From the IMG/VR virus record IMGVR_UViG_3300042905_002421, positions 1 through 26,665 of that record: DNA of 26,665 nt, one strand, 5' to 3'. The position numbers and the translations under genes were made by a program. This DNA is from a virus. Under the pieces are notes generated by a model. It saw only the letters and a program-made list of their open reading frames with translations, was not told the DNA's origin and searched no databases. Of the stretch, positions 1 to 11,213 are shown in pieces (the first letter of the stretch is position 1; every line of letters starts with the position of its first letter).

Positions 1-1724
1 TTAAAGTTGAACATGCAGAGATCAACGCACCTGCTTGGTCAGGTGCTTCTCATGTTTGTTTTAATTCACGATTACTTGGCAATCTAAATACTCCAAAAGA
101 GATTGCTGGTTTGCGTGGACTTGATCTGCATGAAGTTAGCCACATTCTTTACACACCAAGAGAAGGTTCAGAAATCTTTGAATGGTGCAGAGAGAATAAT
201 TATTTATTTGCTTACAATGCGTTAGACGATCAACGAATTGAAACTTTATTTACAACTCGTTATCCCTCAACGATTGATTGGTTCACATCAACAATTCTTA
301 TTCACTTTGTTGACGACCCACAAGCATTTGAAACTTCTTATGGCTTATTGCGTGGTCGGCAATACTTACCAACTGAATTGTTGGCACGATCACGCAACGC
401 ATATAAGTTCCAAGATCAATTAGATGAAATCTGCGAAATTGTTGACCAATATCGTGTATTAGTTTTTCCTGACGATACTGAATTAGCAAAAGATTTAATC
501 AAACGATTTGATGCGTTAATGCCAAAACAAGAAGTTCCCCAAGACGGATTAGCGGATTGGGAAAAAGATTTACTTGGCAAAGACGGCAAGAAAGTTGTGA
601 TCTCAATTAAATCCCCATTCGGTCATGGTGATAGACCGCATGAAGGTATAGAGAGTTCATCAACATCTCGCCCAGTTCCACCAATTCAACAAAAGCGTGA
701 TCGTGATAGGGCTAAAACAAAACCCATTAAAGATGATGCTAAATTGGCAGAACAATTAAAATCACAACCAGTAATTGAAATTGATTTAACTAATCAAAAT
801 AAAGATACTGATAGTGGTAATACTGCTGGTAATCAAACTCCTGATGATCAATCTGCATTATCAGATATGTTAAATAACATATTAGATAATCAACAGATTG
901 CTAACGAGATCAACGACATCATTAGACAAATTGGTGGCTTACCTTCTCTTGCTACCAATAACTCTAAAGAGCCAAATAAATCTCGGTATCAAAATCAAAA
1001 TCCTGATGCTCAAACTTTCCAAGCATCTCTATCTTTTAGTAGAGAGTTGGAAAGATTAAAAGCAACCTTTGACCCTGCTTGGAATAAATACCAATCACAG
1101 GGTCGCTTACAGGCGCATAGATATATGCGTGGTGATGATTTAGATACGATCTTTGATCAATGGTCAGAAGGTCAAGATGATGCGACAGAGATCGAGTGCG
1201 TAATTCTTTTAGACAATTCAGGTTCAATGAGTGGTCGCAAAGAAACTTCTGCTTATCGGGCTATGTATGCAATCAAGAGAGCATTAGATCGCATTAACGC
1301 AAACACCACAGTAATTACATTCAATACGATTGCAAATGTTTTGTATCGTGCTGATGAAAAAGCAACTGGTGTAATTCGTAATGCTGGCTCTCAGGGTGGA
1401 ACTAACCCAACGGAAGCAATTACTTATGCAACTAAAATACTTGCTGAAACTGAAAAACCAGTTCGTATTTTCTTTGCAATTACTGACGGAGAGTGGGAAC
1501 ACTATTCAGTTAGAGAAAATAACGAAGCAATTAAAAAACTAGGTAATGCTGGTGTATTAACTGCTTTTGCTTATATTGCTGATCAAGATGAATTAGTAAA
1601 TCTTGATCAAGAAAAATCGCACTATTGCGAAATTGGTGCGGTTGTAAATAACCCTCTTAACTTAATCGGCATGGCTAAATCAATCGTGAAGTATGCGATT
1701 AGTCGGAGATTAGTTAACGCATAA
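1..1724 (+). CDS. HExxH metalloprotease-like / VWA domain protein, 5' end missing
   Basis: The frame is open to the left edge of the window, so the true start lies upstream; a TTG at 111 is the first start-like codon but the reading continues before it. About 25 bases after that TTG the protein has HEVSH, a zinc-peptidase HExxH motif, followed by NALDDQRIE, which resembles the third-ligand region of CobT-like/VWA metallopeptidase-like proteins. A long polar, Asn/Gln-rich linker follows. The C-terminal third is a von Willebrand factor A domain with a MIDAS motif (D-N-S-G-S about residue 368 counted from the TTG, then GGTNPTE and ITDGEW). In bacteria and phages such proteins usually pair with a MoxR-type AAA+ ATPase encoded just upstream, which would be outside this window. 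The substrate is unknown. I am sure of the VWA domain and fairly sure of the metal site. Confidence 0.85.
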   Translation, partial: KVEHAEINAPAWSGASHVCFNSRLLGNLNTPKEIAGLRGLDLHEVSHILYTPREGSEIFEWCRENNYLFAYNALDDQRIETLFTTRYPSTIDWFTSTILIHFVDDPQAFETSYGLLRGRQYLPTELLARSRNAYKFQDQLDEICEIVDQYRVLVFPDDTELAKDLIKRFDALMPKQEVPQDGLADWEKDLLGKDGKKVVISIKSPFGHGDRPHEGIESSSTSRPVPPIQQKRDRDRAKTKPIKDDAKLAEQLKSQPVIEIDLTNQNKDTDSGNTAGNQTPDDQSALSDMLNNILDNQQIANEINDIIRQIGGLPSLATNNSKEPNKSRYQNQNPDAQTFQASLSFSRELERLKATFDPAWNKYQSQGRLQAHRYMRGDDLDTIFDQWSEGQDDATEIECVILLDNSGSMSGRKETSAYRAMYAIKRALDRINANTTVITFNTIANVLYRADEKATGVIRNAGSQGGTNPTEAITYATKILAETEKPVRIFFAITDGEWEHYSVRENNEAIKKLGNAGVLTAFAYIADQDELVNLDQEKSHYCEIGAVVNNPLNLIGMAKSIVKYAISRRLVNA

Positions 1725-3894: not shown

Positions 3895-4071
3895 ATGGGT
3901 TATGTAGAAATTGTTAGGCAAGTTCAAGATCACGAATTAGATACATGTGATCAATGTGAACAACAGGGTGTTAGAAGTAATGGTAAAACAATTACCGATA
4001 ATTACTCGCAAGATATTTTGTGGTTTTGCTATAACTGCGTAGAAGCACAAAAGAGATCACTCTCTCGATAA
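3895..4071 (+). CDS. Small zinc-ribbon-like protein
   Basis: 58 aa, with its ATG directly after the stop of the membrane protein and a G-run (GGGGGT) as the only ribosome-site candidate. Two Cys pairs, CDQC and CYNC, are separated by 23 residues, as expected for a zinc ribbon. It is followed by the structured non-coding gap. No enzymatic motif is seen; it could be a nucleic-acid or protein adaptor. Confidence 0.6.
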   Translation: MGYVEIVRQVQDHELDTCDQCEQQGVRSNGKTITDNYSQDILWFCYNCVEAQKRSLSR

Positions 4072-4080
4072 CTTAAAATT

Positions 4081-4217
4081 GTTGGGTAGGCGTTAACACA
4101 AGACTTGTCGGGGTTCTTTCATTCCCCACTCCTTTCGCTTGTGAAGGGCGGTCAAGACTTTTAATATCCTTAAATTGCTTTGGATAATAAGACGAGCCGT
4201 ATCTGCGCCTATTCAAC
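4081..4217 (+). ncRNA. Candidate structured RNA (riboswitch-like leader or small RNA)
   Basis: This gap between two small genes folds on paper into a compact multi-stem shape. P1 pairs 4081-4092 with 4206-4217 (12 bp including two G-U). P2 pairs 4100-4107 with 4153-4160 (AAGACTTG with CAAGACTT, one A-A mismatch). P2 encloses P3 (GGGG 4110-4113 with CCCC 4124-4127) and P4 (CCTTTC 4131-4136 with GAAGGG 4143-4148). P5 pairs TATCC 4165-4169 with GGATA 4182-4186. It does not fit a tRNA and I recognise no known RNA class. It ends 24 bases before the next ATG, so it could be a cis-acting leader or a separate RNA. The fold is by eye only. Confidence 0.45.
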
Positions 4218-4240: not shown

Positions 4241-4396
4241 ATGTTTAATGAGAACCAAAAAATAAAAATACTTCAACAAAGAATTGAATATCAAAAATCT
4301 TTGGCTGAGGTTGCTCGTATGTTTGGAACTTCAAGAATACAAATTAGAAAAATAGAAGCCGAATACTTAAATCTAAAAAGGAAAAATAATGTTTGA
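4241..4396 (+). CDS. Small helix-turn-helix protein
   Basis: 51 aa. The segment SLAEVARMFGTSRIQIRKIEAEY reads as a helix-turn-helix of the kind seen in small phage regulators and transposase N-termini: a first helix with an A at position 3, a G-T-S turn, then a recognition helix. The rest is Lys/Gln-rich. The start is supported only by a weak GGA upstream, while its end overlaps the next gene by eight bases. It lies directly downstream of the candidate RNA, which could control it. Confidence 0.55.
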   Translation: MFNENQKIKILQQRIEYQKSLAEVARMFGTSRIQIRKIEAEYLNLKRKNNV

Positions 4397-4589
4397 TGAT
4401 TTACTTGATGAAAGTTTGTTTGATGAAACATTTGATAGCGAACCACAATGTAATTGTGAGTGTGGTTGTGAAGTTCCAGTATCGGGTCAATGTGTTGATT
4501 GCAGTAGTGATAATGGGCATCAAAATAATAATGGATTACCTAAATACGATCACTTAAACGAACTATTTACTACAAGGGAGAGCCAATGA
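4389..4589 (+). CDS. Small acidic Cys-cluster protein
   Basis: 66 aa with an AAGGA ribosome site at 4377-4382. The N-terminus is very acidic (DDLLDESLFDETFDSE). A compact Cys cluster follows (CNCECGC, then CVDC), giving six cysteines in about 25 residues, enough for one zinc or Fe-S site. Similar Cys-rich mini-proteins occur in actinobacteriophages, but I know of no established role. Its stop overlaps the next ATG (ATGA). Confidence 0.65.
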   Translation: MFDDLLDESLFDETFDSEPQCNCECGCEVPVSGQCVDCSSDNGHQNNNGLPKYDHLNELFTTRESQ

Positions 4590-4903
4590 ACCAAGAACAA
4601 GAGGACTTAGTTAAATCTATTAACTTTGCCAATGAGTTTATTAAAATTGTTCGTGGATTTAAGTTAGATCAAGAACGGCAAGATAGTTTGCCCCAAGAGA
4701 TAAAAGAGTATTTAGCCAATGAACACCTAAATCAATTAATTACAGATCAGGGATTAGAGCCTGAGATGTTAGTTTGGGGATTGTTGCACATGATTGAAAT
4801 ACTTTTGAAGTTTGCCAATTTACAGCCAAATGATTTAGTTGAAATCATGGATAAGTTTGTTGAAAGCATAACTAATGGGAACGGAGATAAAGATTATGAC
4901 TAA
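4586..4903 (+). CDS. Hypothetical helical protein
   Basis: 105 aa, starting in an ATGA overlap with the Cys-cluster gene and preceded by AAGGGAG. It is rich in Leu, Ile, Glu and Asn and looks all-helical; the stretch LVWGLLHMIEILLKFANLQP is amphipathic and could be a dimer interface or membrane-touching helix. The family is not recognised. It overlaps the WhiB gene by eight bases if WhiB starts at 4896. Confidence 0.7.
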   Translation: MNQEQEDLVKSINFANEFIKIVRGFKLDQERQDSLPQEIKEYLANEHLNQLITDQGLEPEMLVWGLLHMIEILLKFANLQPNDLVEIMDKFVESITNGNGDKDYD

Positions 4904-5219
4904 ACCTAAAAGCCAAGTGTCTTTTACTAAAGCAAGAAAAGTAATAAAGCCAGTTGAATTAAAAATACCAACACCTAAAGATATTGATGATGCACCTTGC
5001 CAAACAGTTGACCCTGAAATCTTTTTTCCTGATCCAACTGATAATGCTGGCATCACAAAAGCCAAAACTCTTTGTGGTAATTGTAATCAAGAAGTTAAAA
5101 CTAAATGTTTATCTTTTGCATTAACTAATAGAGTTCATTACGGAGTTTGGGGTGGACTAACTTCTGATGAAAGACAAACCCTACTTCGCAAACAGTATAG
5201 GAGTAAAAATGAGATGTAA
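4896..5219 (+). CDS. WhiB-family Fe-S transcription factor
   Basis: 107 aa from the ATG at 4896, which has CGGAG about ten bases upstream; an in-frame ATG at 4875 has a poorer site and would extend into the previous gene. The Wbl signature is present: APC..., then CGNC, a fourth Cys, and the diagnostic YGVWGGLTSDER turn followed by a basic tail. WhiB-like proteins bind a [4Fe-4S] cluster through four cysteines and work with the housekeeping sigma factor; they are confined to Actinobacteria and their phages. Here the gap between the third and fourth cysteines is seven residues (NQEVKTK) rather than the usual five. In phages such proteins can repress host whiB genes and affect superinfection. 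Confidence 0.9.
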   Translation: MTKPKSQVSFTKARKVIKPVELKIPTPKDIDDAPCQTVDPEIFFPDPTDNAGITKAKTLCGNCNQEVKTKCLSFALTNRVHYGVWGGLTSDERQTLLRKQYRSKNEM

Positions 5220-9659: not shown

Positions 9660-11213
9660 TTAGTAGTTATTTTTTAAATCTTCTAAAAATAAATCATGAG
9701 AAATAGTTTTTTGTATATTTTGTGTAGTTATTAAATTTGTATGTGTTTTATTAAAATACTGTAATTCTCTTTTATACTTTTTAAGTAACTGTTTATTAGG
9801 TAATTTATGCCCAAACAATACACACAAATAATCTTCCGTATTAAAATGAGATCCCTTTAAAGTTGAAAAAAAATCTGATTGAACTAAAATTCTTTCTTTA
9901 TTAATTTCTAATATATTTGTTATTAATTCTGGAGTTTTAGTATTTTGTATAAAATTTTTCCAAAACAATGTGTTTTCTTTATTAGTTACATAATGCCAAT
10001 ATATGTATTCAACTATAGAAAAACTACTAATTTCATTGTTATAATTAAAATTATCTTTAATAAATTTATTTTTTGTTAAAATATTATGTTTATTTGTAAA
10101 AAATTTTTGTAAATTAAAAATTGTTTGCATAAGAGAGGTTGCTTCTAAAGGTTCAACAAAACCTGCGGACAATCCTAACGCTAAACAATTTTTTATCCAA
10201 ATTTCTTTATAAGTTCCAGGTTCAAAAGAAAATAATTTGGGAGGAAAAATTTCAAAACCTAATTTATTTTCAATTTCTATTTTAGCATTATCTACCGAAA
10301 TTTGATTATTATCAAAAACGTAACCACACCCATACCTATTTTGTAATGGGGTTTTCCACATCCAACCATAGTCCATAGCAATTGCTTCTATATATGAAGG
10401 AATTTTTTCATGTTCTTTATTATTTAAGAAAAAGGGCAATGCTTTATTAGTAGGAAGATAATCTTTGTAAGATATCCATTTTGATAAATATTTTTTTCCT
10501 ATAATTAAACGTGCAAATCCAGTGCAATCAAAAACAAAATCTACATCTATACATAAACCATTCTCTAATAATAAATTAGAAATCTCTTCATCTTGATTTA
10601 AATTTATTTCTTTTACTTTACTTTCAATTCTTTTAATCCCCCTATTTTGTGCAACTTTTGATAAATAATCTGCTAATAATTTTGCGTCAAAATTTAAAGA
10701 CCAGGCTCCAAGTTGATTGTAATTTAAAATTGGATTTATATTATTAAACTCAGTTATTTTTGTAAAAGGAACTTTATTATTATTACAAATTTTATTTATA
10801 AAACAATATTCATCCATAGAAATATTATTTATGTAAGAATATAAATGAAATAAATTTGTGTCTAAATTAAATGAATCAAGGTACCCATTTTGTTCTGAAA
10901 TTTCAGGAATTAAATATTCAAATGGATGATAAAAATAATCTTCGTTTTTATTTGACCATCCAGTAAATTTTGCAGTAGTTTTAATTGTAGCATTCGTATG
11001 TTTTATTAAATCAGAAACTGGTATTCCCAAAAAATCCAATGCGTTTATTAAGTTTGGGGTAGACGCTTCTCCTGCTCCTAAAATACCTATTTCTTTACTT
11101 TCAATTAAAACAACATTATCGTCAGGAAAAATAACCTTTGTATATAAAGCGGTTAACCAACCAGCAGTGCCTCCACCTACTACAACTAAGTTATTTATAT
11201 GTTTATTTTTCAA
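9660..11213 (-). CDS. Flavin-dependent halogenase (tryptophan halogenase family)
   Basis: 517 aa from a TTG start with a good AAGGA five bases upstream. All family hallmarks are present: the FAD-binding GGGTAGW at 13-19; GAGEAST (46-52); NATIKTTAKF with Lys78, which aligns to the catalytic lysine (Lys79 of PrnA) that carries hypohalous acid; W-x-W-x-x-P at 284-289, the signature that suppresses monooxygenation; and GFVEPLEATSL at 351-361 with the partner Glu. The enzyme needs FADH2 from a flavin reductase, none of which is encoded here, so it would use a host reductase. It halogenates an aromatic or other substrate that cannot be named from sequence; a cyanophage relative, VirX1, is known. 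The gene is extremely AT-rich (bases 10021-10080 hold only six G or C). Confidence 0.92.
   Translation of the reverse strand: MKNKHINNLVVVGGGTAGWLTALYTKVIFPDDNVVLIESKEIGILGAGEASTPNLINALDFLGIPVSDLIKHTNATIKTTAKFTGWSNKNEDYFYHPFEYLIPEISEQNGYLDSFNLDTNLFHLYSYINNISMDEYCFINKICNNNKVPFTKITEFNNINPILNYNQLGAWSLNFDAKLLADYLSKVAQNRGIKRIESKVKEINLNQDEEISNLLLENGLCIDVDFVFDCTGFARLIIGKKYLSKWISYKDYLPTNKALPFFLNNKEHEKIPSYIEAIAMDYGWMWKTPLQNRYGCGYVFDNNQISVDNAKIEIENKLGFEIFPPKLFSFEPGTYKEIWIKNCLALGLSAGFVEPLEATSLMQTIFNLQKFFTNKHNILTKNKFIKDNFNYNNEISSFSIVEYIYWHYVTNKENTLFWKNFIQNTKTPELITNILEINKERILVQSDFFSTLKGSHFNTEDYLCVLFGHKLPNKQLLKKYKRELQYFNKTHTNLITTQNIQKTISHDLFLEDLKNNY

Follow-up and report, generated by a model that had tools for sequence, protein, structure and literature searches.

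Noncoding RNAs of phages are poorly known, and freshwater Actinobacteria and their phages are abundant. Among described structured RNAs, GOLLD has been linked to phages, and comparable earlier families often turned out to be riboswitches, ribozymes or protein-binding RNAs. A 2023 survey reportedly predicted thousands of structured-RNA candidates in IMG/VR contigs and may list, as an unnamed entry, the RNA described below. We analysed a viral sequence of 26,665 nucleotides (nt) (IMG/VR record IMGVR_UViG_3300042905_002421, positions 1 to 26,665; hereafter the window), in which an element of 137 nt, counted from the first to the last base of its closing helix P1, lies on the + strand at 4081–4217. 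An earlier note made from the sequence alone had proposed a possibly new structured RNA at this place. Sequence comparison gives strong structural evidence that the element is genuine and belongs to a new family of RNAs from actinobacterial phages, the novelty lying at the level of the RNA family.

A three-way junction maintained by compensatory change

The element occupies most of the intergenic gap between an upstream stop codon at 4071 and a downstream start codon at 4241, as the earlier note had described. Its parts, all on the + strand, are:

4081–4217, +, whole RNA element (150.7 bits with covariance model R1, 76.6 bits with R2; covariation)
4081–4092, +, P1 5' strand, GUUGGGUAGGCG, pairing with 4206–4217
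4093–4096, +, junction strand J12, UUAA (UYAA in the family, from column counts); U may pair with G4205, as a U-G pair drawn by RNAalifold
4097–4102, +, P2 5' strand, CACAAG, pairing with 4138–4143
4110–4127, +, P2b hairpin, GGGG...CCCC, within the P2 loop (RNAalifold; window, L025, L047, L129 and L132)
4138–4143, +, P2 3' strand, CUUGUG, pairing with 4097–4102
4145–4152, +, P3 5' strand, AGGGCGGU, pairing with 4196–4204; A4144 unpaired
4153–4157, +, kink-turn-like bulge, CAA then GA (positions L1–L3, 1b and 2b; family tally)
4159–4192, +, P4 hairpin, variable in length and sequence, with compensatory changes in its pairs
4194–4195, +, GA facing the bulge (positions 2n and 1n), GA or UA across the family
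4196–4204, +, P3 3' strand, GCCGU(A)UCU, with A4201 bulged
4206–4217, +, P1 3' strand, CGCCUAUUCAAC, pairing with 4081–4092; covariation

The end-to-end helix of the earlier note is present, with GUUGGGUAGGCG and CGCCUAUUCAAC forming 12 base pairs (bp), two of them G-U, and the four further helices and three-way junction that it placed inside were borne out. The element folds at −43.4 kcal/mol, compared with −31.2 ± 3.5 for 200 dinucleotide shuffles (z −3.46), only one of which folded as well. P2b is missing from short members.

We examined covariation in two alignments. Alignment A5 comprised 13 sequences aligned by plain MAFFT with no structural guidance; 99.7% of its cells in P1, P2 and P3 pair, with both-sided changes in 13 of the 23 pairs. 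Its covariation score of 0.346, against 0.151 in shuffles, was approached by none of 500 shuffles, and sliding the partner strands by 1–3 columns lowered pairing to 34–46%. The 45 members of A6 were fitted to the model, so this alignment favours the structure; pairing holds in 97.5% of its cells, and both-sided changes occur in 222 cells, compared with 55 ± 6 in shuffles. RNAalifold, run unaided on 13 relatives, drew P1, P2, P2b, P3, P4 and a three-pair extension of P3. Compensatory changes were found in 11 of 12 pairs of P1 (44 distinct members) and in all six pairs of P2, and every homologous gap examined keeps both pairings, the opposite of the outcome that the earlier note had named as its refutation. 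The 5' strand of P3 occurs as GCGAU, GCAUU, GCAGU, GCGCU and GCCGU, each matched by the opposite strand; its middle two pairs appear as GG/CC, GA/UC, AU/AU, AG/CU, GC/GC and CG/CG.

The family consensus reads P1 - UYAA - P2 hairpin - AAGR - GCNNU - CAN GA - P4 - (G/U)A - GNNGU - AYCUG - P1', with the junction strands UYAA, AAGR and AYCUG near-invariant. The R of AAGR covaries with the Y of AYCUG, as G-C, G-U or A-U and never A-C. We replaced P3 as a 5-bp helix only with a helix extended by AGR/YCU across the bulged A, because AAGA goes with AUCUG in 3/3 members and the extended helix is also the one drawn by RNAalifold. The alignments show that the members share a three-way junction, in which P1 (up to 12 bp) is the closing helix and a P2 hairpin and a P3/P4 arm are the two branches. 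Wobble pairs in P3 (G-U at position 1, U-G at position 5) are retained in 43–44 of 44 members; DNA would need no such pairs, which argues that the element is RNA transcribed from the + strand. Intrinsic terminators lie on the same strand as the element. The lengths of the 45 members (78–142 nt) are evenly distributed over the remainders modulo 3 and no reading frame is open throughout these members, so the element is not coding, the other finding that would have spoken against the original proposal.

The single-sequence minimum-energy structure of the window pairs CUUGUC with GACGAG, misses P2 and P3 and captures just 46% of the pairs that are conserved; it was dropped as a working model because P2 and P3, which it breaks, covary. 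We also dropped a pseudoknot between CCUU of the P2 loop and AAGG of the junction strand J23, for which there is no linker and whose CCUU is absent in members rich in guanine and cytosine (GC). In the window and many of its relatives P2 faces competition from a weak alternative hairpin, CCUUUC/GAAGGG, which is absent in GC-rich members; no conserved alternative pairing was seen across the family. The loop strand CUCCUUUC, just 5' of the P2 3' strand (4128–4137 in the window, and in relatives), resembles the 3' end of 16S rRNA (the anti-Shine-Dalgarno region); it is retained in most AT-rich members, and the GC-rich ones are without it.

A kink-turn-like bulge between P3 and P4

By the sequence rule for kink-turns (k-turns), a bulge of three nucleotides precedes a G-A and an A-G position; U at 2n marks a known non-standard class (PMC5061560); in Kt-23, U at 2n is the commonest natural state (PMC5061560). 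At the sequence level the phage RNA follows this rule, with a three-nucleotide bulge and then G-A and A-G (or A-U) between two helices. A CAN bulge separates P3 from P4 in 45/45 members and is followed by GA in 42/45 (G at 1b in 42/45, A at 2b in 45/45). The facing strand reads UA in 26/45 and GA in 19/45, with A at 1n in all 45. The bulge carries a kink-turn signature, from which we infer the bend itself.

Relation to described RNA families

Rfam 15, applied at gathering threshold to the window and 17 other RNA-bearing loci, gave no match on the element. Permissive scans returned weak matches far under threshold, the sole strong one being a separate tRNA in locus L267. ARAGORN and Rfam identified neither a tRNA nor a transfer-messenger RNA in the window element, in agreement with the earlier note, and our literature search found no published description of the phage RNA. 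The lack of an Rfam match, together with a fold kept by paired mutations, makes this probably a new kind of phage RNA; the missing match and the compensatory changes in P1 and P2 support the original suggestion of a possibly new structured RNA. The tRNA match in L267 (1396–1497, −) measures 102 nt, about 30 nt over model length, lies just after the RNA and is missed by ARAGORN.

Extent of the family

Homologues of the element were found in at least about 74 IMG/VR contigs with a GC content of 42–73%. A search with the protein encoded downstream of the element, a small helix-turn-helix (HTH) protein, yielded 23 viral contigs sharing the gap, and conserved-core patterns added L025, L041, L047, L065, L069, L070 and L071. 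A search with another neighbouring protein (window 4586–4900), in which no RNA pattern was used, led to L122–L125, L129, L130, L131 and L132, and the RNA was present in 8/8 of these loci. A wider pattern together with model R1 added at least about 36 contigs, including the GC-rich L176, L181, L142, L154, L163, L193, L220 and L232. L072–L075, L076–L098, L141 and most wider-pattern loci unscored by the models were treated as chance pattern matches. Members score at least 38.9 bits with R2, whereas, with L163 excluded, no score above about 21 bits arises in 485 kb of unrelated loci; L163, which fell within that set, is a true member at 39.5 bits. The RNA occurs once per record in 12/12 RNA-bearing records searched whole.

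AAGGGC, TCA and GTANCTGC, or sequences close to them, were part of the patterns that brought in later members; P1, P2 and the two middle pairs of P3 were never fixed letters, except GG/CC in early patterns. In members found via proteins alone (L122–L125 and L129–L132) the junctions are kept, and P3 and the C/U of AYCUG vary.

A pattern scan of 85k genomes for cellular copies gave four matches, all judged to be chance. R1 in 296 and R2 in 396 Actinomycetota genomes found nothing convincing, under stricter filters and with no positive control. Among named phages, neither blastn, run with short queries from the core and with whole elements, nor R2 on 16 whole records gave a match. Since the sampled Actinomycetota genomes and these 16 named phages are without the RNA, the family seems, as judged from a small sample of genomes, to be limited to phages that have yet to be cultured. 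L181 may have a cultured prophage host, given the isolate-style form of its IMG/VR name.

Genomic settings

The flanking genes in the window, and one gene near a relative of the RNA considered below, are:

3895–4071, +, upstream gene for a small Cys-rich protein (open reading frame (ORF) with no Pfam or PHROG match)
4241–4396, +, downstream gene for a 51-aa HTH protein (weak Sigma70_r4/HTH_28 match, E 2.8e-5; homologues found)
L176:5867–7495 (approximate), TROVE plus vWA_Ro60 gene (Ro60)

A WhiB-like gene lies at 4896–5219, and because such genes serve as an actinophage marker (PMC10202952, PMC6802176), the window is likely to derive from a freshwater actinobacterial phage. In the largest group of members, to which the window belongs, the RNA begins 3–10 nt past a stop codon, and its spacing is as expected for an element inside a compact operon. 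Most members have a small HTH gene downstream of the RNA; in L130 and L131 a further gene separates the two, and the RNA is correspondingly farther upstream. The next gene varies across the family: an HTH gene, another small gene (L130), a glycosyltransferase operon (L180), a tail gene (L142) or a tRNA (L193, L232). A tRNA call lies about 45 nt upstream of the RNA in L163, tRNA-Trp about 70 nt downstream in L232 and, in L193, a tRNA at a downstream distance of about 10 nt, all three being GC-rich phages.

Intrinsic terminators follow P1 by 1–7 nt in 9/45 members (L065, L069, L146, L188, L194, L199, L220, L222 and L248), which represent at least three lineages: the L065 group, the L069/L222 pair and L220. 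No member of the window's group has its own terminator within 7 nt of P1. The terminator hairpins begin outside P1 and do not overlap it. That of L065 resembles annotated phage terminators, and in the L065 group nothing separates the RNA from a strong terminator that a convergent ribonucleotide reductase gene also uses.

In six loci another structured element, about 135 nt long, immediately follows the RNA and precedes the HTH gene:

L123:3455–3592, second element
L124:3453–3592, second element
L143:2285–2420, second element
L149:2671–2806, second element
L211:4901–5036, second element
L247:10622–10757, −, second element

Its closing helix measures about 15 bp and shows compensatory changes (GGTAGAGATCATCGA/TCGATGATCTCTACC, GATAGAGATCGTCAA/TTGACGATCTCTATC and GGTAGAGATCACCAA/TTGGTGATCTCTACC). 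The element contains the invariant ATCTTGCAAGATCGTTGA, and Rfam gave no match to it.

Elsewhere in the window, a protein starting MKNKHINNLVVVGGGTAGWLTALYT (9660–11213, −) resembles, by eye, a flavin-dependent tryptophan halogenase, and the protein at 111–1724 (+) ends in a VWA domain resembling that of CobT (Pfam CobT_C, E 3e-8), which is unusual for a phage. The L163 ORF for the terminase large subunit appears to have an intein-like insertion in the region of the ATP-binding loop, and a 682-aa ORF of L232 has an apparent intein-like insertion, both judged by eye. Ro-like (TROVE) genes occur in 340 named phages, mostly Mycobacterium and Streptomyces phages.

Possible functions

We favour a stand-alone, probably processed, trans-acting phage RNA, to which we assign a probability of about 0.5. 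The element would be the gene of a small, highly structured RNA that works in trans as an independent molecule, excised from the transcript of an early operon in the window's phage and its like and ended by its own terminator elsewhere. The predicted kink would bend P4 back and thereby unite junction and bulge in a single compact core; this invariant core may bind a single conserved partner, either a small ligand or a protein of host or phage, the variable helices serving as scaffold only. We rank this reading first because an RNA that is its own molecule fits the terminator and tRNA settings, which a leader for one gene does not. The single copy per genome and the lack of a conserved alternative pairing also speak for it. 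Several observations weigh against it. RNAs of the window's group end about 20–30 nt before the HTH gene start, a leader-like position; no conserved promoter was identified, promoters not having been analysed systematically; no obvious single-stranded, antisense-like seed was seen; and the invariance of the AAGGGC, TCA and GTANCTGC letters is partly built in, as the search patterns contained them. A riboswitch-like cis leader, whose junction would bind a ligand or protein and alter translation or transcription of the downstream gene, comes next in our ranking and is in our judgement improbable. It would account for invariant junction nucleotides amid freely covarying helices, for the place of the RNA directly before the HTH gene ribosome-binding site in most freshwater members and for a k-turn-type motif of a sort known in seven riboswitch classes (PMC5061560), but the downstream gene is neither constant nor related from member to member, the L065 group has only the terminator and the convergent gene downstream, and the terminator hairpins stay clear of P1, with no conserved competing structure found. 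The earlier note's idea that the HTH gene may have a ligand-sensing leader loses ground in particular, as several lineages have a terminator at once and no HTH gene downstream, a gene intervenes in L130/L131 and a tRNA is nearby in the three GC-rich phages.

More doubtful still is a self-cleaving or self-processing ribozyme that would cut phage transcripts. The compactness of the three-way junction, its more than 15 invariant nucleotides at unpaired or junction positions, the indifference to gene context and the single copy per phage would suit such an activity, but no cleavage site is identifiable and no Rfam family matches, the published small ribozymes being included there. What probability remains we leave to functions not considered here. 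A Y-RNA-like partner of Ro60 we largely reject as a general rule: the L176 RNA is found about 250 nt downstream of the TROVE plus vWA_Ro60 gene, with two tRNA genes nearby, but TROVE occurs in only 2/33 RNA-bearing records, about 25 kb from the RNA in the second, seven TROVE-bearing named phages give no match to R1 or R2, and Rfam gives no Y RNA match. That the stretch folds by chance, codes for protein or is a protected DNA site, with no functional RNA at all, is scarcely credible; a single long helix can arise by chance and minimum-energy z-scores are weak in short members, but the compensatory changes far exceed shuffles and slid controls, G-U pairs are conserved, no open frame is conserved and the family holds together over 42–73% GC.

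Tentatively, the invariant junction and kink-turn core may constitute a new class of aptamer or ribozyme, present once per genome in phages of many Actinobacteria. If so, this phage RNA would have a ligand-binding or catalytic activity unlike any described. Such compensatory change with invariant junctions over this GC range is uncommon among RNA families, and the consensus is precise enough for designing probing, cleavage, pull-down and deletion tests.

Comparison with known RNAs

GOLLD (lakes, Lactobacillales) is likewise noncoding and structured and was discovered in metagenomes from lakes; it is hundreds of nucleotides long, whereas the phage RNA measures 78–142 nt and does not match the GOLLD Rfam model. 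With Y RNA and bacterial Y-RNA-like RNAs it shares small size, an end-to-end helix and, once, a place beside a TROVE gene, but it has no Rfam match and nearly all of its carriers lack TROVE. Like orphan riboswitch candidates, it has conserved junction nucleotides and covarying helices and is often intergenic on the coding strand; unlike them, it has no constant downstream gene, and its terminators lie outside the element. Among k-turns such as Kt-7, Kt-23 and that of the SAM-I riboswitch, Kt-23 shares with the phage RNA that U is the commonest base at 2n. The k-turn is a motif rather than a family, and the phage RNA embeds it in a three-way junction with further invariant strands.
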